This document shows, piece by piece, positions 9,552 through 25,026 of a stretch of 64,000 nucleotides of DNA. The stretch covers positions 1,426,001 through 1,490,000 of the forward strand of contig NC_014220.1 of the NCBI RefSeq assembly GCF_000092405.1, in the 5' to 3' direction. Numbering within the stretch: the first letter of the stretch is position 1; each line of letters opens with the position of its first letter. Under the pieces are notes generated by a model, which was not told the DNA's origin, searched no databases, and saw only the letters and a program-made list of their open reading frames with translations. The position numbers and the translations under genes were made by a program. The stretch is from Syntrophothermus lipocalidus DSM 12680. Lineage in GTDB: Bacteria; Bacillota; Syntrophomonadia; Syntrophomonadales; Syntrophothermaceae.

Positions 9552-11299
9552 TACCGCCCACCCCCTTCCAGGATGGCATCCAGCTTACATATCTGAGCGC
9601 AAAGGCCACACCCAACGCAGAGGTTGGGATTAATCCTGGCTATTCTTTCTTCTTCTATCCAATAAATACCAGTGCACCCTATCTTGATGCACAGCCGGCA
9701 TCCTTTGCAAGCCTCCTCGTCCACGTAGTACATCTTTTTTCCCAGACCGGCATCAGGGAGAAGGGCACAAGGTCGCCTGGCGATGATAACCGAAGGCTGT
9801 CCAGAAATGAGCTCTTCTTTCAAGGCTGCTTCCAGTTGGTTCAAGTCCAGTGGGTCCACGGTCCTTACCCTCTGTACCCCGACTGCCCGGCAAACCGCCT
9901 CCAGGTCCAACCTTGCCGTCTCTACCCCGTCGATGGTGCGGCCAGTCGCCGGGTGATGCTGGTGACCGGTCATGGCCGTGGTCCCGTTGTCTAGAATCAA
10001 CACAGTAGAAATTCCCCGATTGTACACGACATCGATGAGCCCGGTGATACCTGAATGCACGAATGTAGAATCGCCGATCACCGCCACTGTTTTCTGGGCA
10101 TACTCGGGTCCCCGGGCCTTTTCCATACCCAGGGCTGCGCCTATGCTCGCTCCCATACAGATGGTGGTATCCATGGCAGCCAAGGGTTTGAGTGCCCCCA
10201 AAGTATAACAACCGATATCCCCGCAAACAGTCAATCTCATCCGGCCCAGGGTATAAAAGACTCCCCGATGCGGGCATCCCGGACAAAACAGGGGTGGCCT
10301 GGCGGGCACCGTCGTATCCAGCGTGTAAGCAGTGTTCGTAGTTCTCCCCAGTAATCTCTCTTCCAAGAGTTCTGGGCTGTACTCACCGGTACGCGGGAGG
10401 AAATTCTTGCCTTCTGCCTTGATCCCCCATGCTTTCAATTGCTCCTCCATCACAGGCTCCAATTCTTCCACCACGATTAAACGGTCAACCTCGGCTGCAA
10501 ACCGACGTACCAGTTGCTCGGGCAAAGGGTTGACCGTACCCAGTTTAAGAACCGATACCTCGGGCATAACCTCTTTCACGTACTGGTAAGCCACCCCGCT
10601 GGTAACGATACCGAGGGCTCGATCTCCCCACTCTATCCGGTTTAGAGGGCTCTCCTCCACGTATTCACGCAAGGCAGCCATCCGCTTTTCAACCTCGAGG
10701 TGGCGCAACCGGGCGTGCCCCGGCAACATGACGTATTTGGCAGCGTCTTTGGTATAAGGTTTCAGATCAACCTGTTGCCGCTCGCCCTCCTCCACCATGC
10801 TTTGAGAATGGGCCAGGCGTGTAGTAATCCTCAACATAACCGGGGTGTCAAACCGCTCGCTCAGCTCAAAAGCCGAAAAAACAAAGTCTTTAGCTTCTTG
10901 GCTGTCTGAAGGTTCAACAACCAACAGCTTGGCAAACTTACCGTATCCCCGGTTGTCTTGCTCGTTCTGCGAGGAATGCATCCCCGGATCGTCCGCAGAC
11001 ACCAAGACCAAACCGCCGTTTACCCCTGTATAAGCAAAAGTGAAAAGCGGGTCAGCCGCGACGTTTACTCCGACGTGTTTCATAGCCACCAAGGTACGGG
11101 CCCCGGCAATGGAGGCTCCACAACCTACCTCGAAAGCCACTTTCTCGTTGGGAGCCCATTCCGCGTACACCCCATCGTACCTGCTGAAAAACTCCAGTAT
11201 CTCGGTGCTGGGCGTACCCGGATAAGCGGTAGCCACTGTGGCCCCGGCCTCATATGCTCCTCTAGCAATAGCTTCGTTGCCGATCATCAATCTTCTCAT
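9551..11299 (-). CDS. iorA: Indolepyruvate:ferredoxin oxidoreductase, alpha subunit
   Basis: The large TPP- and Fe-S-binding subunit, 582 aa. N-terminal pyrimidine-binding domain (MIGNEAIARGAYEAGATVAT), then FCPGCPHRG, a TPP region with GDSTFVHSGITGLIDVVYN and ILDNGTTAMTG, and a C-terminal ferredoxin domain with CKGCRLCIKIGC and CVGCGLCAQIC. The frame stays open to 11371, but ATG 11299 has AGGGGG six bases upstream and gives the family N-terminus MRRLMIGNEA. Pairs with iorB through TAATG overlap; speE ends 68 bases upstream. Confidence 0.93.
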   Translation of the reverse strand: MRRLMIGNEAIARGAYEAGATVATAYPGTPSTEILEFFSRYDGVYAEWAPNEKVAFEVGCGASIAGARTLVAMKHVGVNVAADPLFTFAYTGVNGGLVLVSADDPGMHSSQNEQDNRGYGKFAKLLVVEPSDSQEAKDFVFSAFELSERFDTPVMLRITTRLAHSQSMVEEGERQQVDLKPYTKDAAKYVMLPGHARLRHLEVEKRMAALREYVEESPLNRIEWGDRALGIVTSGVAYQYVKEVMPEVSVLKLGTVNPLPEQLVRRFAAEVDRLIVVEELEPVMEEQLKAWGIKAEGKNFLPRTGEYSPELLEERLLGRTTNTAYTLDTTVPARPPLFCPGCPHRGVFYTLGRMRLTVCGDIGCYTLGALKPLAAMDTTICMGASIGAALGMEKARGPEYAQKTVAVIGDSTFVHSGITGLIDVVYNRGISTVLILDNGTTAMTGHQHHPATGRTIDGVETARLDLEAVCRAVGVQRVRTVDPLDLNQLEAALKEELISGQPSVIIARRPCALLPDAGLGKKMYYVDEEACKGCRLCIKIGCTGIYWIEEERIARINPNLCVGCGLCAQICKLDAILEGGGR

Positions 11300-14765: not shown

Positions 14766-14800
14766 CTCCCGTATCCCCTTCTAAAAACGGCAACTTTGAA

Positions 14801-18660: not shown

Positions 18661-19857
18661 TTATCTCCGCCCCGATTCGGCTGCCCTTATCCTGTTCCTT
18701 TCCACGAACCTGCCCATCCGTTCAATGGCCTCCTCGATGTTATTCAAGCTCGCAGCATAACAACAACGGACAAAGCCCTCTCCCGACTCGCCAAAAGCGT
18801 TTCCCGGAACTACCGCTACCTTTTCTTCCATCAGCAGCCTCTCGGCAAATTCTTCGCTTTTCATGCCGGTTCCCCGAATCGAGGGGAAAATATAAAAGGC
18901 GCCCCGCGGCTCAAAACAGTCCAGGCCGATGTCGCGCATACCTTTCACTATCACTCTGCGCCGGTAGTCATACTCTTGAATCATTTCCCTCATTTGATGT
19001 TCACCGTGACGCAGAGCTTCGATAGCTGCCATCTGCGACATGATAGGAGCACACAGCATGCTGTACTGGTGAATCCTGTTCATGGCCGCTATCAGGTCAC
19101 CGTCTCCGCAAGCGTAACCTATTCTCCACCCGGTCATGGCAAAAGCCTTGGAAAAACCATTCAACACGATGGTCCTTTCTCTCATACCGGGTAACGAGGC
19201 TATGGATACATGCCTGCCGTTGTACGTCAGTTCGCCGTAAATCTCGTCCGACACCACTATGAGATCATTGTCTACGATCACGTCTACCAGATCAGCCAGG
19301 TCTTGCCATCCCATGATGCCCCCGGTGGGGTTGTTGGGATACGGGAGTACCAAAACCTTGCTCCGCGGGCTCAGGCCAGCCACCAACTGTTCGCGCGTAA
19401 GCCTGAATTCGTTTTCGGCCGTAGTCTTTAGCATTACTGGCTTGCCGTGAACCAGAGAGGTAATCGGACCATAACACACGTAAGAAGGCTCCGGTATCAA
19501 GACCTCGTCCCCCGGGTTAATCAAGGCTCTTAACGCCAGGTCCACCGCTTCGCTAACCCCGACGGTCACCAGTATTTCTTCTTCAGGATCGTACCTGACA
19601 CCTATGGTCCGATACATATAGGCTGCAATCTCTTCCCGCAACTCCAACAGTCCCTGGTTAGATGTGTACATGGTATAACCTTTTTCTAAAGAGTAACAGC
19701 AAGCTTCTCTGATATGCCAAGGGGTGACGAAATCGGGCTCTCCTACCCCTAATGAAATAACCCCCTGTGACTGCGAAACCAGGTCGAAGAACCGCCTGAT
19801 ACCTGAAGGCGGAATCGAACTTACAGTGTCGGCAACATACTTTTTCATGCTCTTCAT
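18661..19857 (-). CDS. PLP-dependent class I/II aminotransferase
   Basis: A 398-aa fold-type I aminotransferase of the AspC/YugH group. Motifs are SLGVGEPDFVTP at the start, LPYPNNPTGGI, VSDEIYGELTY, and the PLP lysine in LNGFSKAFAMTGWRIGY; the C-terminal Arg is in VRCCYAAS. It transfers amino groups between an amino acid and 2-oxoglutarate or pyruvate. Its start overlaps the stop of the upstream Lrp-family gene in ATGA, so the pair is one operon, under a T-box leader. The T-box hints at alanine or another single amino acid as substrate. Confidence 0.9.
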   Translation of the reverse strand: MKSMKKYVADTVSSIPPSGIRRFFDLVSQSQGVISLGVGEPDFVTPWHIREACCYSLEKGYTMYTSNQGLLELREEIAAYMYRTIGVRYDPEEEILVTVGVSEAVDLALRALINPGDEVLIPEPSYVCYGPITSLVHGKPVMLKTTAENEFRLTREQLVAGLSPRSKVLVLPYPNNPTGGIMGWQDLADLVDVIVDNDLIVVSDEIYGELTYNGRHVSIASLPGMRERTIVLNGFSKAFAMTGWRIGYACGDGDLIAAMNRIHQYSMLCAPIMSQMAAIEALRHGEHQMREMIQEYDYRRRVIVKGMRDIGLDCFEPRGAFYIFPSIRGTGMKSEEFAERLLMEEKVAVVPGNAFGESGEGFVRCCYAASLNNIEEAIERMGRFVERNRIRAAESGRR

Positions 19858-20360
19858 GGGCTCACCACCAATCTCCGGTCTTCTTCTTCATCACTCAGCA
19901 AGAAATCGTCCTGTTTATAGCGTTTGAGAACAAAGTGAGTTACGGTACTCTGGACTCCGTCTAAAGGAGCCAGCTTATCGGAAATAAACATAGCGATGTC
20001 TTTTAAGTTTTCGCCGTGCACTACCACCGAAAGGTCATAAGTCCCACTCATCAAATACACGCATCTCACTTCCGGAAATCGAGAAATCCTCTCCGCGATG
20101 CTGTCAAAACCAACCCCCCGTTCCGGGGTGACTTTAACATCGATCATGGCTGTTACCCCGTTGTCTCCCCATTTGTCCCAATTTATGACTGCGTTGTACC
20201 CGAGAATGATTTTTTCCTTCTTCAACCGTGCAACAGTCTCGCTTACCTCTTCCTCGGACACACCTAACATGGTCGCGATCCGCTGATGGCTGGCAGTTGC
20301 GTCCTTCTCGTACAGTTTCAGTATCTTACGTTCGATCTCCCTGTCGCGCTCAACGCTCAT
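19854..20360 (-). CDS. Lrp/AsnC family transcriptional regulator
   Basis: A 168-aa regulator with an N-terminal winged helix-turn-helix (HQRIATMLGVSEEEVSETVARL) and a C-terminal RAM ligand-binding domain (GVTAMIDVKVTPERG...VRCVYLMSGTYDLSVVVHG). Such proteins sense amino acids and control their metabolism. It is the first gene after a T-box leader and is coupled to the aminotransferase. ATG 20360 follows AGGAGG. A regulator placed behind a T-box is unusual; it may tune the aminotransferase or distant genes. Confidence 0.92.
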   Translation of the reverse strand: MSVERDREIERKILKLYEKDATASHQRIATMLGVSEEEVSETVARLKKEKIILGYNAVINWDKWGDNGVTAMIDVKVTPERGVGFDSIAERISRFPEVRCVYLMSGTYDLSVVVHGENLKDIAMFISDKLAPLDGVQSTVTHFVLKRYKQDDFLLSDEEEDRRLVVSP

Positions 20361-20402: not shown

Positions 20403-20645
20403 TAAAAAATAAAACTCTCATCCGGACAAGGGACGAGAGTTGTTCCCGCGGTACCACCCTGATTGGCATACAAGCCCGCTCTTACCCTTTAACGGTGGGC
20501 TGCCGTCCGGCTTGACCTTGACCCCGGTTTCACCGGCACTCCTGGGGGGCTTTCATCTGCAACCTCATACCGGCTCTCACCTGGCCCGGCTCTCTGGGAT
20601 GAAGGTTTGCCGACTACTCTCCCATTCATCGTGATAGCTGTATTC
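20403..20645 (-). promoter_or_regulatory. T-box riboswitch leader
   Basis: On the minus strand the leader carries the T-box core AGGGTGGTACCGCGGGA (20460-20444), then terminator stem AACTCTC...GAGAGTT followed by TTATTTTTTA. Stem I features are AGTAGTCGG (loop E side), AGAGAGCCGGG and GGTGAGAGCCGG, then GATGAAAGCC and GGAGTG. The antiterminator pairs AGGG with CCCT. The candidate specifier after GAA-A is GCC (20550-20548), an alanine codon; AGC (Ser) in the adjacent register cannot be excluded. It should raise expression of the Lrp/aminotransferase operon when the cognate tRNA is uncharged. Confidence 0.9.
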
Positions 20646-20734: not shown

Positions 20735-21745
20735 TCATCTCTGTCGCCTCAGCTCGGAAGCCATCTTTCCGGCAGCAGCGCGACCGCTAGCAATGCTTTC
20801 TATTATGGACATGGGACCCGTGCACGCACCGGCAGCCAAGACCCGGTCTCGGTTAGTAGTACCTCCCGCTCCAACCTGCAAAAACCCGCCCCGGCCGGTT
20901 CCAAGTTCTAACAACGACGCTAAGCTTGGGAGGTCTTTCCCAGGAACCAGGGCCGGACACAATACTACCCAATCATACCTTCTTGCTGTCGGTTTTCTGG
21001 TCTCGGGGTCATCATAGATAACCTCCAATTCCTTACTACCCATGAGGTGAACCTTAGACGGCATAGCCCGAATATGGGTGCAAAATGAGGTCTTCGGCCG
21101 ATACAAAGCCTCATACCTTTGCCGGTCCATGAAATATATATCGACGCGGCTCCCAGGTAGCTCCCCCTTCACGAGCCCCGCCAGCTTGGGTACATATAAA
21201 CAACATACTCGCGAACAGTACGGAACACCGGCTCCTACTTCTCTCGACCCAAAGCACTGAATAAAGGCCAAGCGAGGGCTTTCCCCCAGAATTTCCGGGG
21301 ATTCGCGGATAATGCCCTCTATTTCCAGAGCGGTAACCACCCCTGGCAGGTGGGAATAACCGAACTCGGCCCGCAGTGCTGGGGAAAAAGTGTCAATTCC
21401 TGCCGCAACGATGATGCCTCGTACCTGAAAGGTCAAACGTCCGTTTGGAGTCTCCACGTCTACTTCAAGGCCGTCCTGTAAATTTCTCATCCCGGCCACT
21501 CTTGCAGCGACTAGAGCCTTGACCAGTTCTTGTTCCTCCACTGCCCGAACCCTCTGCCCGGCAAGACAGGCCCCACAGGCCTGACACACACCATCAACCG
21601 CCTTGCAGTTGTATAAAGAAGCCTTGCCCCCCAAGCGGAGTTCTTTCTCAATTATAACCGATTCGATTTCATGCTCGGCCAGGGTAAGAGCAGCCTCCAA
21701 CCCGGCCACTCCCCCTCCTATGATGAGCACTTCCGGCATACGCAA
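20735..21745 (-). CDS. HdrA-like FAD protein (ferredoxin domains absent)
   Basis: A 336-aa flavoprotein related to the FAD part of heterodisulfide reductase subunit A. FAD motif LIIGGGVAGLEAALTLAEHE near the start, a Cys cluster NCKAVDGVCQACGAC (about 47-61), the HdrA signature CFGSREVGAGVPYCSRVCC, and a closing GACTGPMSIIESIASG. It lacks the two C-terminal ferredoxin domains of full HdrA. It lies after metF on the same strand, beyond a 320-base gap, so it is likely the electron-transfer partner of the MetV/MetF block. Cytoplasmic. Confidence 0.82.
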   Translation of the reverse strand: MRMPEVLIIGGGVAGLEAALTLAEHEIESVIIEKELRLGGKASLYNCKAVDGVCQACGACLAGQRVRAVEEQELVKALVAARVAGMRNLQDGLEVDVETPNGRLTFQVRGIIVAAGIDTFSPALRAEFGYSHLPGVVTALEIEGIIRESPEILGESPRLAFIQCFGSREVGAGVPYCSRVCCLYVPKLAGLVKGELPGSRVDIYFMDRQRYEALYRPKTSFCTHIRAMPSKVHLMGSKELEVIYDDPETRKPTARRYDWVVLCPALVPGKDLPSLASLLELGTGRGGFLQVGAGGTTNRDRVLAAGACTGPMSIIESIASGRAAAGKMASELRRQR

Positions 21746-21763
21746 TCACCTAAAACCTTTTTC

Positions 21764-22063
21764 TAGCCACAGATAAACACAGATAGCCACAGATTAACAC
21801 TGATTTATTATTATTTTTCGCTATTCCTTTGACCGATCTGTACGGGTAGCCTGCTTCAAACAGAAAACTCTCAGGACGCCCTTCGCTGTGTCACACTACA
21901 AGAATAAACAACCAGAAATGTTTTTGTGAGCGTAAGCCCATCTGTGCATATCAGCCCGGCACTCAGCTGGCCGAAATTGTGCAACGTGCCAGCTTCTCTC
22001 GATAACGATATTCATCTATCAAAGCTTGAGCTGAGTGCCGGGTCTGTGTCCATCTGTGGTTCT
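21764..22063. repeat. Structured intergenic element bounded by inverted CACAGAT tags
   Basis: The left end is a tandem tag (TAGCCACAGATAAACACAGA, then AGCCACAGATTAACACTGAT, 21764-21804). The right end is an inverted, diverged copy (TCTGTGTCCATCTGTGGTTC, from about 22044). Inside lies a perfect 14-bp inverted repeat CCCGGCACTCAGCT (21955-21968) / AGCTGAGTGCCGGG (22029-22042), with a smaller AGCTGGC/GCCAGCT nested in it. No coding sequence is seen. It fills the gap between metF and the HdrA-like gene and resembles a MITE or REP-like element. Confidence 0.6.
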
Positions 22064-22065
22064 AC

Positions 22066-22974
22066 TTACGGACGCGGGTAGAGCCCCGCTCTGCTGACTA
22101 TTTCCGGTATAACCTCTTCCCACGCCACAGCCATGAGGTGTACACCCCTGACCCCGGGAATCTCACGGACCTCTTGGACCTGCTCCACCGCAATTCTTAT
22201 AGCCTCTTCTTCCACATCTTTCGCCTCTTCCAATCGCCGGCAGATCTCTTCCGAAACCATCATGCCGGCCACGTTCTTTTGCATGTATCTGGCCATTTTC
22301 GCGGATTTTATCGGCATGATCCCGGCCAGTATCGCGACCCGTTCATGAAGCCCCTGTTCAACCACCATCTTCATGAACTCGCGAAACCGCCCCATCTCTA
22401 AAACGCACTGGGTCTGCACAAACTCGGCCCCTGCCTCCACCTTCTTCTTTAGCCGGATGACCCGGAACTTGAAAGGGTCGGCAAAAGGGTTCTCTACGCA
22501 TCCTATGAACATATCCGGGCGCACCTTCATTTCTTCCCCGCAAATGAACCGTCCGTGATCTCGCATGTTCCTTACCGCATACAACAACTGGATGGAATCG
22601 AGGTCAAAAACGTTCTTGGCTTCCGGGTGGTTGCCAAAACTCTGGTGATCCCCGGTTAAGCAAAGGATATTCTTTATCCCCAAGGCAGCGGCTCCCAACA
22701 CGTCTGACTGAAGGGCAATACGGTTACGGTCGCGACAGGTCATCTGGATAACGGCTTCCAGCCCCTCGCTCTGGATTATTACTCCGGCAGCGATGCTCGA
22801 CATCCTCACGATGGCAGTCTGGTTGTCGGTAACGTTAAAAGCATCCGCATACCCTTTCAGAGCCCTGGCCTTTTTGCGAACGAAATCCGCGTTACAGCTT
22901 TTGGGAGGGCCGATCTCGGCTGTTACTGCGAAATGGCCGCCAATTATGACTCTTTCCAAGTTACTCCTCGCCAT
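22066..22974 (-). CDS. metF: Methylenetetrahydrofolate reductase, MetF subunit
   Basis: Reduces 5,10-methylene-THF to 5-methyl-THF, in the methyl branch of the Wood-Ljungdahl pathway or in methionine synthesis. A TIM-barrel flavoprotein of 302 aa. Seen are FAVTAEIGPPKSCNADFVRK with the catalytic Glu, FNVTDNQTAIVRMS, ILCLTGDHQ, and GAEFVQTQCVLEMGRF. The start overlaps the end of metV by 14 bases. Pairing with metV marks the Fe-S-linked acetogen/syntroph type rather than stand-alone NADH-dependent MetF. Confidence 0.92.
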   Translation of the reverse strand: MARSNLERVIIGGHFAVTAEIGPPKSCNADFVRKKARALKGYADAFNVTDNQTAIVRMSSIAAGVIIQSEGLEAVIQMTCRDRNRIALQSDVLGAAALGIKNILCLTGDHQSFGNHPEAKNVFDLDSIQLLYAVRNMRDHGRFICGEEMKVRPDMFIGCVENPFADPFKFRVIRLKKKVEAGAEFVQTQCVLEMGRFREFMKMVVEQGLHERVAILAGIMPIKSAKMARYMQKNVAGMMVSEEICRRLEEAKDVEEEAIRIAVEQVQEVREIPGVRGVHLMAVAWEEVIPEIVSRAGLYPRP

Positions 22975-23632
22975 GCGGCTCCACCCCCTCCCTCATCATC
23001 CGGCGCGGGCCTCCATCCCGACTCCTAGACCAGTTTTTAGGCAATACCAGTTTTTCCAAGACCTCCAGTCGTCCCTGCCGCTCTAACCGATCGTATATCA
23101 ATTGCCAGGCGCAATCTACCGTATCCGATATTTCGCATTTCCCGTTTTGGGAACCACCACAGGGACCATTGAGCAGACTCTTGGAGCACCGAGCTACCGG
23201 ACAGATGCCTCCGGTTAGGTCGAGGATACAGTCACCGCAAGCCTGGCATCGCTCCTCCCACACCCCGTCGGCCACCGGCATCCCGGCAAAAACCGTGTTT
23301 AACCCAGGTATGACCGGTACCACAGGTAGGACTTCTGCCAATGCCTGCACCCCAACCCCACAGGCGAGAGACAAAACGGCATCAAACGATTCCTGCCTTT
23401 CTCGCACCGGATCCAAAAATTCATACTCGCACTGGCGAGCGACACTGTCCCACTCTATCTCGATGTCTGGGCCCAATGCCATCCGCAAAAGGTGGGCCAT
23501 TTTTTCCGCTTCCCTGGCCCCTCCGGTTTGACAAACAGTTACGCACCCGCCACATCCCAAGACCAGTATCCTGTGATAGCCTTGCAGTTTTGCGATTAAA
23601 TCCTCCACCGGTTTTTGTTGCCCGACAATCAT
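22961..23632 (-). CDS. metV: MetV, zinc/Fe-S partner of MetF
   Basis: A 223-aa protein with the MTHFR C-terminal-type domain. N-terminal cysteines in VLGCGGCVTVCQTGG, then a Cys-rich stretch CQACGDCILDLTGG, ICPVARCSKSLLNGPCGG, and NGKCEI. MetV is known as the small subunit of the MetFV reductase in acetogens, where it delivers electrons to MetF. ATG 23632 overlaps the upstream stop in ATGA. The order fusion-metV-metF shows they act as one complex. Confidence 0.9.
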   Translation of the reverse strand: MIVGQQKPVEDLIAKLQGYHRILVLGCGGCVTVCQTGGAREAEKMAHLLRMALGPDIEIEWDSVARQCEYEFLDPVRERQESFDAVLSLACGVGVQALAEVLPVVPVIPGLNTVFAGMPVADGVWEERCQACGDCILDLTGGICPVARCSKSLLNGPCGGSQNGKCEISDTVDCAWQLIYDRLERQGRLEVLEKLVLPKNWSRSRDGGPRRMMREGVEPHGEE

Positions 23633-25026
23633 GTTCTCTCCCCCGTTACCCCAAACCTAGACAGGCTGTTCGCGGCCGACATTCGCATCAGGTTTACCCG
23701 GGCCTCAATCCCCAGTCTCGCCAGCAGTTTATTCAGCCTTTCTACTCTGCCTCGGAGTTTCATGTCTTGATGCCCGTGCTCACACTTGTCCTTAATGCAA
23801 GTCACTATCCAAAGGTCCCTTTTCCCGCCGTTGGCCGCCAGAACTCGCAGCATCTCGTTCTCGCCGATAGCGCCGGCACAAGGGAACAGCTGGTATTCGT
23901 ACTTTGTCCCCGCTTGTTTCAAAACTAGCCCCGCCGCGTTTTCACAAGCCAGTATCGCCGGCTTCGCTTTTGGCAGGGATTCCGTACCAATCTCAGTTAT
24001 CGCCTGGGCCGGGCATAAGGCGTAACAGAGCCCGCAACCCCGACAAGACAAATCATCTATGAAACAAGCTTCTCCATAAAGATTTGCGTACCGGTCATCC
24101 CGCCGAAACTCTATGGCCATATGCGGGCAGTTCCGGTAGCAGGTGAGGCAATATGCACACCGCTCTGCATTTATCTCGAACCGTTTCTCCCCCCGCATAC
24201 GCCCCCGGGCCAGTACTGCTACTTTCGCAGCCAGGGCTTGGATAACGGTCTCTTCCTCCGCCTCAGTCATGAACCCCTCCGGGTCTGGAAAGATATATAT
24301 TCCTTCCCGGTTGGTTCCTCCTGGGTAATCGCCCCAGTCAAAATCCATCAAACCCAACCGACTGAAGTATACCGACATGTCATCGCCCAGTACCCAAACC
24401 GGAGCTACCAAAAAGTCGGCCTCCAGACACACTTCACGCCCTAAATCCCGGTCAAAAACCGTAGCTTCAATCCTTCTCCCCAGCCCTGGTATCGGAATTG
24501 TTGACGGAACCCGATCTGTGCGTACGAAAACGACTCCCCTGCGACGAGCTTCCGTATACAGGTCTTCTCCTCCGTCGAAACTTGTCTGAATATCATCGGT
24601 TACCACCCATACCCGGCTTCTCTCGGCCAGTTTCAGCACTTCAGGCAACGCTTCCGAATATGTTCTCCTGGATACCCCCATAAGGGCAACCAAGACCGAG
24701 TAGCCCGCTGCTTCATGACAGCTTGGAAAATTCAACACCGGTCGGGATGGATCCGGAACTAATATCACCGCTCCTACCTCTACCCCTTCAACCTCCGTCC
24801 CTTTCAAGCCCACAGTAAAGCGGCCTATTTTCCCCTTGAGATAGGCCAAATCCTTGTCCCATATTGTCTGAATCCCGACAGTTCTCCCTGAAAAGGGCAC
24901 AGGCTTTCGATAAGCCCAAACCACGGGCTGCTGATTGGCTATGGCCCGGGCGAGCTTTTCCGCCCGCTGGCTGCCACCCCAAACCAACACTCTTGGGTTC
25001 ACTTTGTGTTCTTCATAGTAACCCAA
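23629..25026 (-). CDS. HdrA-like/ferredoxin/MvhD fusion protein
   Basis: A 465-aa protein with three parts. Residues about 1-275 resemble an HdrA Rossmann core, but the usual GxGxxG is replaced by VLVWGGSQRAEKLARAIA, so FAD may not bind. Residues about 288-345 carry two [4Fe-4S] motifs, CAYCLTCYRNCPH and CRGCGLCYALCP. Residues about 355-455 match the MvhD electron carrier (ILACENAAGLVL, FPCAGAIGENEML, TCIKDKCEHGHQDMKL). Likely passes electrons toward MetV/MetF. TTG 25026 is eight bases after GAGG. Heads the metV-metF operon. HdrB and HdrC are not nearby. Confidence 0.82.
   Translation of the reverse strand: MGYYEEHKVNPRVLVWGGSQRAEKLARAIANQQPVVWAYRKPVPFSGRTVGIQTIWDKDLAYLKGKIGRFTVGLKGTEVEGVEVGAVILVPDPSRPVLNFPSCHEAAGYSVLVALMGVSRRTYSEALPEVLKLAERSRVWVVTDDIQTSFDGGEDLYTEARRRGVVFVRTDRVPSTIPIPGLGRRIEATVFDRDLGREVCLEADFLVAPVWVLGDDMSVYFSRLGLMDFDWGDYPGGTNREGIYIFPDPEGFMTEAEEETVIQALAAKVAVLARGRMRGEKRFEINAERCAYCLTCYRNCPHMAIEFRRDDRYANLYGEACFIDDLSCRGCGLCYALCPAQAITEIGTESLPKAKPAILACENAAGLVLKQAGTKYEYQLFPCAGAIGENEMLRVLAANGGKRDLWIVTCIKDKCEHGHQDMKLRGRVERLNKLLARLGIEARVNLMRMSAANSLSRFGVTGERT

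Follow-up and report, generated by a model that had tools for sequence, protein, structure and literature searches.

In the MetVF-type methylene-tetrahydrofolate (methylene-THF) reductases, MetF reduces methylene-THF and MetV wires MetF by iron-sulfur (Fe-S) centres, as is known for these protein families. Acetogen energetics poses the question of how such reductases obtain their electrons and of whether the Hdr proteins associated with them bifurcate. The closest described systems are the Hdr-type (type IV) MetVF-HdrCBA-MvhD enzymes of Moorella thermoacetica and Sporomusa ovata, for which a double HdrA is the published form (PMC9430772), and the methylene-THF reductase (MTHFR) cluster of Thermacetogenium phaeum (Tph_c15090-15120), described with its distant hdrBC in 2019 (Keller et al., PMC6895022). 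The cluster found in Syntrophothermus lipocalidus TGB-C1, a thermophile that grows on crotonate alone and oxidises butyrate with a methanogen partner (PMC3035303), is a real, reduced variant of this type IV reductase. It is situated in a stretch of 64,000 nucleotides (the window; positions 1,426,001-1,490,000 of the single-contig genome of 2,405,559 bp), where a gene for an HdrA'-ferredoxin-MvhD fusion is followed on the minus strand by metV, metF and the gene of a short HdrA. A sequence-only reading of this DNA had proposed four open reading frames on one strand, with metV and metF between two Hdr proteins, and both the coordinates and the Pfam matches bear this out:

23629-25026, minus strand: HdrA'-ferredoxin-MvhD fusion, 465 amino acids, TTG start (Pfam, NCBIfam; kept in seven relatives)
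22961-23632, minus strand: metV, Fe-S subunit of methylene-THF reductase (Pfam DUF5981, the MTHFR C-terminal family, E 1e-37)
22066-22974, minus strand: metF, catalytic subunit (Pfam MTHFR, E 9e-42), the sole MTHFR gene of the genome (single genome-wide match)
20735-21739, minus strand: short HdrA, 334 amino acids (Pfam Pyr_redox_2, E 1e-9; phmmer to 5odc_A, 3e-38)

The fusion gene and metV overlap by 4 nt, and metV and metF by 14 nt. In a search of the class (63 genomes), the fusion protein was present in nine genomes, confined to two families (f1 and f2). The order fusion-metV-metF-short hdrA is identical in all seven relatives read in detail, which span both families, at identities to the S. 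lipocalidus proteins of 32-53% (fusion), 56-74% (MetV), 77-82% (MetF) and 38-53% (HdrA). In four of the five relatives with flanks listed, the short hdrA is followed by the same Lrp/AsnC-type and aminotransferase genes as in S. lipocalidus, or by the aminotransferase gene alone. Because the gene order recurs in all seven relatives, chance is excluded as the source of the arrangement. A contig scan for the cluster gave at least seven loci, and a sample of 398 genomes of the phylum was used for prevalence: a profile match at E 1e-25 or better was obtained in 37 of them, and the best 26 matches outside f1 and f2 all adjoin metV and metF.

These linkages bear on the simplest alternative, namely that the genes are neighbours only: MetVF would then work with ferredoxin by itself (type II), and the HdrA-like proteins would belong to another reaction. 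In other bacteria, MetVF alone does use reduced ferredoxin in vitro (PMC8760232), and the MetVF of Sporomusa was purified without Hdr subunits (PMC9430772); however, with a four-gene linkage over two families, metVF beside related genes at every one of the 26 best phylum matches, and start-stop overlaps within the cluster, this explanation is very improbable.

Concerning the features of type IV enzymes, metV and metF are adjacent, and HdrA (as two modules in two genes) and MvhD (in fused form) are encoded with them; hdrBC is encoded with metVF neither in the S. lipocalidus cluster nor in the seven relatives. Since hdrBC exists only elsewhere in the genome, the cluster is filed as a variant and not as a standard type IV member. 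MetV, MetF, MvhD and two thioredoxin-reductase-like (TrxR-like) HdrA modules are shared with Moorella and Sporomusa, as are at least one HdrA module with a glutamate/lysine (E/K) signature and the lack of the inserted ferredoxin domain (PMC9430772). The view that the cluster encodes a shortened enzyme related to MetFV-HdrABC-MvhD of Moorella, and with no local hdrBC, is thus supported, at four proteins versus six.

In a tree of 51 HdrA modules, from which the Sporomusa and Moorella double HdrA sequences themselves were left out, fused double HdrAs (L037 and L077) group by halves, the N-terminal ones with the short HdrAs and the C-terminal ones with HdrA', both with support of 100/99. The remaining HdrAs of S. 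lipocalidus fall outside the cluster-linked short clade. As the two proteins match the halves of a double HdrA, the earlier description of an HdrA split over two proteins is essentially right in that sense.

Larger flanks were inspected at 18 phylum loci. HdrA', MvhD, metV, metF and short HdrA, without hdrBC, are found at L072, L073, L076, L078, L081 and L083-L088; the fused double HdrA form at L037 and L077; and HdrC or HdrBC alongside at L038, L041, L074, L079 and L080. The compact form is not unique; it stands at one extreme of a known, graded spectrum. Within this series of clusters, S. lipocalidus possesses the most reduced HdrA module found, and the combination of a reduced HdrA' with a host devoid of acetyl-CoA synthase (ACS) appears to be new. 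In a further family, f3 (e.g., G014, G016, G044 and G048), the MetV domain lies inside open frames of about 510-550 codons, which suggests that MetV and MetF form a single polypeptide and that the Hdr fusion protein is missing; MetV went undetected in many of the other f3 genomes.

Similar in organization to S. lipocalidus, T. phaeum possesses hdrA, metF, metV and an MvhD protein in the same order, with hdrBC outside the cluster, but differs in having acs genes alongside and in using the pathway catabolically. Its activity is NAD-independent, linked to viologen and anthraquinone-2,6-disulfonate (AQDS), and partly in the membrane fraction (PMC6895022). A genome of 2,939,057 bp (G130), which agrees with T. 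phaeum in gene order and acs linkage, was taken as that species; its HdrA'-MvhD protein (675 amino acids) retains the N-terminal domain and the GxGxxG motif, whereas S. lipocalidus has lost both. With the tandem or fused HdrAs of anaerobic methanotrophic archaea (ANME; Chadwick et al. 2022, PMC9012536), the cluster shares complementary modules and a proposed heterodimer: there, one copy lacks the N-terminal domain but has Cys197, and the other supplies the parts that the first one lacks. The archaeal HdrAs are described as keeping the residues that contact flavin adenine dinucleotide (FAD), whereas HdrA' of S. lipocalidus has lost the N-terminal domain together with the FAD fingerprint.

QmoA and QmoB of sulfate reducers likewise are a short FAD-containing HdrA and an HdrA-ferredoxin-MvhD fusion. 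Unlike these, the S. lipocalidus pair is linked to metVF, and no genes for the membrane subunit QmoC or for sulfate reduction were seen at the locus; the likeness to QmoAB and sHdr is one of architecture only.

Both Hdr proteins are assigned to HdrA2 by NCBIfam, over complementary parts of the model and below the full-length cut-off. The short HdrA is similar to the HdrA of M. thermolithotrophicus (5odc_A, 3e-38) and to a 349-residue HdrA-like protein of Hyphomicrobium (6tjr_A), which is also the top Foldseek match (template modelling score, TM, 0.87) of its single-chain model (predicted local distance difference test, pLDDT, 87). Its start is probably ATG at 21739 instead of a TTG. The FAD fingerprint is retained as GGGVAG, and a C175xxxC179C180 motif is also present. 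The short HdrA had been described as lacking ferredoxin domains, and Pfam indeed found none in it; what that description missed is a motif of four cysteines:

21566-21607, minus strand: four-Cys motif C45-X6-C52-X2-C55-X2-C58 of the short HdrA

Every Cys of this motif is invariant in the 20 cluster-linked short HdrAs, and the first spacer is X5 in most relatives. C58 aligns with Cys197 of methanogen HdrA, a residue that in methanogens serves to complete a cluster of the partner HdrA within the dimer (PMC9012536).

The fusion had been read as ferredoxin plus MvhD. Both parts are there, and they are preceded by about 270 N-terminal residues with an HdrA fold:

24217-25026, minus strand: N-terminal HdrA thioredoxin-reductase-like domain (about residues 1-270; Foldseek E 3e-19 to HdrA)
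23992-24180, minus strand: two CxxCxxCxxxC [4Fe-4S] motifs, Cys290/293/296/300 and Cys328/331/334/338 (Pfam Fer4, E 5e-10)
23662-23958, minus strand: divergent MvhD/FlpD domain with Cys361, 383, 410 and 415 (Pfam FlpD, E 1e-6)

In the AlphaFold2 model of the fusion (pLDDT 81), the residues of the N-terminal domain mostly score 80-95, and the best Foldseek matches of this domain, at that same E value, are the HdrA chains 5odh, 7bkb and 5odc. The eight cysteines of the [4Fe-4S] motifs and the four of the MvhD domain are invariant in 15 sequences. The FAD fingerprint is lost (VLVWGGSQRA in S. lipocalidus, VLVWGESELA-like in f2): the dinucleotide fingerprint is missing from eight of eight fusion proteins checked from f1 and f2, whereas GxGxx[GA] occurs in 13 of 13 HdrA' checked from other lineages. 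Neither a CxxxCC motif nor an N-terminal HdrA domain is found in the fusion, which is predicted to bind no FAD.

With moderate confidence, we regard the cluster as encoding an Hdr-type methylene-THF reductase that is free of HdrBC and consists of four subunits: MetF, MetV, the short HdrA and the fusion. This is backed by the conserved gene order and the overlaps, by the tree of HdrA halves, and by the HdrA fold in both proteins. Short HdrA and HdrA' would form an asymmetric heterodimer, an arrangement proposed elsewhere for tandem or fused HdrAs, and this heterodimer would bridge the MvhD and ferredoxin domains to MetV. In the fusion, the MvhD and ferredoxin domains may take in or hand on electrons, the single remaining HdrA flavin, in the short subunit, may act as the gate between two-electron and one-electron transfer, and the electrons would reach the flavin of MetF via MetV. 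More tentatively, the likeliest donor would be a low-potential carrier such as reduced ferredoxin, in a simple relay with no obligatory bifurcation, a proposal to which we give slightly less than even weight.

The four-protein enzyme is predicted from gene content, modelled folds, motifs and linkage, and several points weigh against it. In Sporomusa, MetVF failed to co-purify with the Hdr proteins, and contact was seen in pull-downs only (PMC9430772), so that a stable complex is not assured. Between metF and hdrA of S. lipocalidus, there is a gap of 326 bp, about 111 bp of which are a dispersed repeat; this gap is probably secondary, since it amounts to just 12 bp in two relatives (L032 and L034). 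HdrB was found in 22 of 22 genomes tested, so that borrowing of HdrBC is possible, and the conjecture that some hosts lack HdrB altogether found no support among these 22. Finally, E141 and K185 of the short HdrA correspond in the alignment to E356 and K409 of M. thermolithotrophicus HdrA, which would be compatible with bifurcation.

The last point concerns the proposal, also part of the sequence-only reading, of a bifurcating or confurcating enzyme. In its minimal form, the FAD of the short HdrA would split the electrons of a two-electron donor, one branch leading to methylene-THF via MetV and MetF and the other to ferredoxin, and the C45/C52/C55/C58 cluster would replace the inserted ferredoxin domain. 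Residues E356 and K409 of methanogen HdrA have been used to tell bifurcating flavins from non-bifurcating ones (Kremp et al., PMC9430772), the HdrA-like protein of Hyphomicrobium (6tjr) having N at the lysine position, and the four-Cys motif in the Cys197 region is invariant. However, the K409 position is occupied by R in 5 of the 20 cluster-linked short HdrAs, so that the E/K signature is not absolute. The inserted ferredoxin domain of bifurcating HdrA is absent from both the short HdrA and the fusion, and Pfam found no NAD(P)H-binding module like the GltD domain of Moorella HdrA in the cluster proteins. With the fingerprint of HdrA' lost, one HdrA flavin is left, and bifurcation was never demonstrated even for the six-subunit Moorella and Sporomusa enzymes (PMC8760232, PMC9430772). 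A true bifurcating or confurcating minimal enzyme is therefore rather unlikely. The specific version with ferredoxin and NADH is unsupported, and its NADH rationale is set aside because no NAD(P)H module is recognisable. It is decidedly improbable that the cluster represents the smallest HdrA-based flavin-bifurcating enzyme, which, with a single HdrA flavin and neither HdrBC nor the inserted ferredoxin domain, would couple the biosynthetic reduction of methylene-THF to ferredoxin in an ACS-less host.

Concerning HdrB and HdrC, the earlier statement that they are missing holds for the MetVF cluster and fails for the genome, which carries an HdrCBA-MvhD-Flx cluster at 2.10-2.11 Mb (L012) and, at 1.24 Mb (L013), a further HdrA/HdrBC set. 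The four proteins could accordingly be a docking module, with HdrBC or the complete HdrCBA-MvhD-Flx complex borrowed from the 2.10-2.11 Mb locus, giving the usual hexaheteromeric enzyme from scattered genes. Apart from the general presence of HdrB and the two sets just named, a precedent exists in T. phaeum, for which Keller et al. proposed a link to HdrABC, hdrBC being elsewhere (PMC6895022). In f2, however, the lone HdrB is encoded next to its own HdrC and, on contigs that extend far enough, its own HdrA, and this HdrCBA locus is also conserved in f3 genomes without the MetVF-Hdr cluster. No dedicated hdrBC for MetVF was found elsewhere in the f2 relatives, and one is unlikely there because the sole HdrB stands at a locus shared with cluster-free f3 genomes. 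Furthermore, the loss of the N-terminal domain and FAD fingerprint from HdrA' suggests simplification and not retention of an Hdr interface. We regard borrowing as unlikely, though less so than the neighbours-only explanation.

Within L012 (6160-8597, genome about 2,105,159-2,107,596), in-frame TGA codons occur in HdrA, at the Cys197 position (LDCSA-TGA), and in MvhD, in the GCHPGDC motif at codon 72; both would be consistent with selenocysteine. Within L013 (3966-7987, genome about 1,237,965-1,241,986), a second short HdrA of 344 amino acids stands between two HdrBC pairs, and these HdrA/HdrBC genes adjoin CoA-transferase-like genes.

Regarding the host, no match to CdhC/ACS was obtained in S. 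lipocalidus (G000) or in the other f1 and f2 genomes (including G062), whereas, among the 33 other tested hosts in which MetVF is Hdr-linked, 27 have CdhC/ACS, and one of the six negative ones is less than 90% complete. With no acetyl-CoA synthase in the genome, a catabolic Wood-Ljungdahl pathway is not indicated for S. lipocalidus, and the enzyme cannot serve acetogenesis through this synthase. Formyl-THF synthetase is encoded, as is a MetH-type protein with homocysteine, pterin and B12 domains, in which the usual reactivation domain was not found. From the missing acetyl-CoA synthase, the formyl-THF synthetase and this cobalamin methionine synthase without reactivation domain, the role of the reductase, judged by gene content, is most likely the supply of methyl-THF for methionine synthesis. 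Yeast extract or tryptone gave no significant stimulation of growth (PMC3035303). The MetF tree unites the ACS-less hosts weakly (85/38), and a single origin of an anabolic clade is not claimed. The set suggests that neither local HdrBC nor acetogenesis is needed for the association of MetVF with HdrA and MvhD. As a set of four proteins with a single HdrA flavin, in which no NAD(P)H module was found, it offers a cleaner, tractable system for co-expression and may be a simpler one in which to learn how electrons are supplied.

The gap between metF and the short hdrA contains the following element:

21952-22062, no strand assigned: dispersed repeat with perfect 14-bp inverted arms at 21955-21968 and 22029-22042

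A second copy, 80% identical, is found in L013 at 10179-10288. At the cluster, promoter- and terminator-like sites occur at no more than chance frequency, such that the claim of a single transcript rests on overlaps and synteny. No SAM (S-adenosylmethionine) riboswitch or other RNA element controlling the cluster was found, the only cis-regulatory element in the window being a T-box leader (RF00230, 113.6 bits) at 20426-20638 on the minus strand. It precedes genes for an Lrp/AsnC regulator and a class I/II aminotransferase (18661-20360), downstream of the MTHFR cluster. Short tandem TAGCCACAGATAAACACAGA-like repeats at window positions 21764-21803 immediately precede the start of the short hdrA, and a stretch resembling them is also found near window position 14800.

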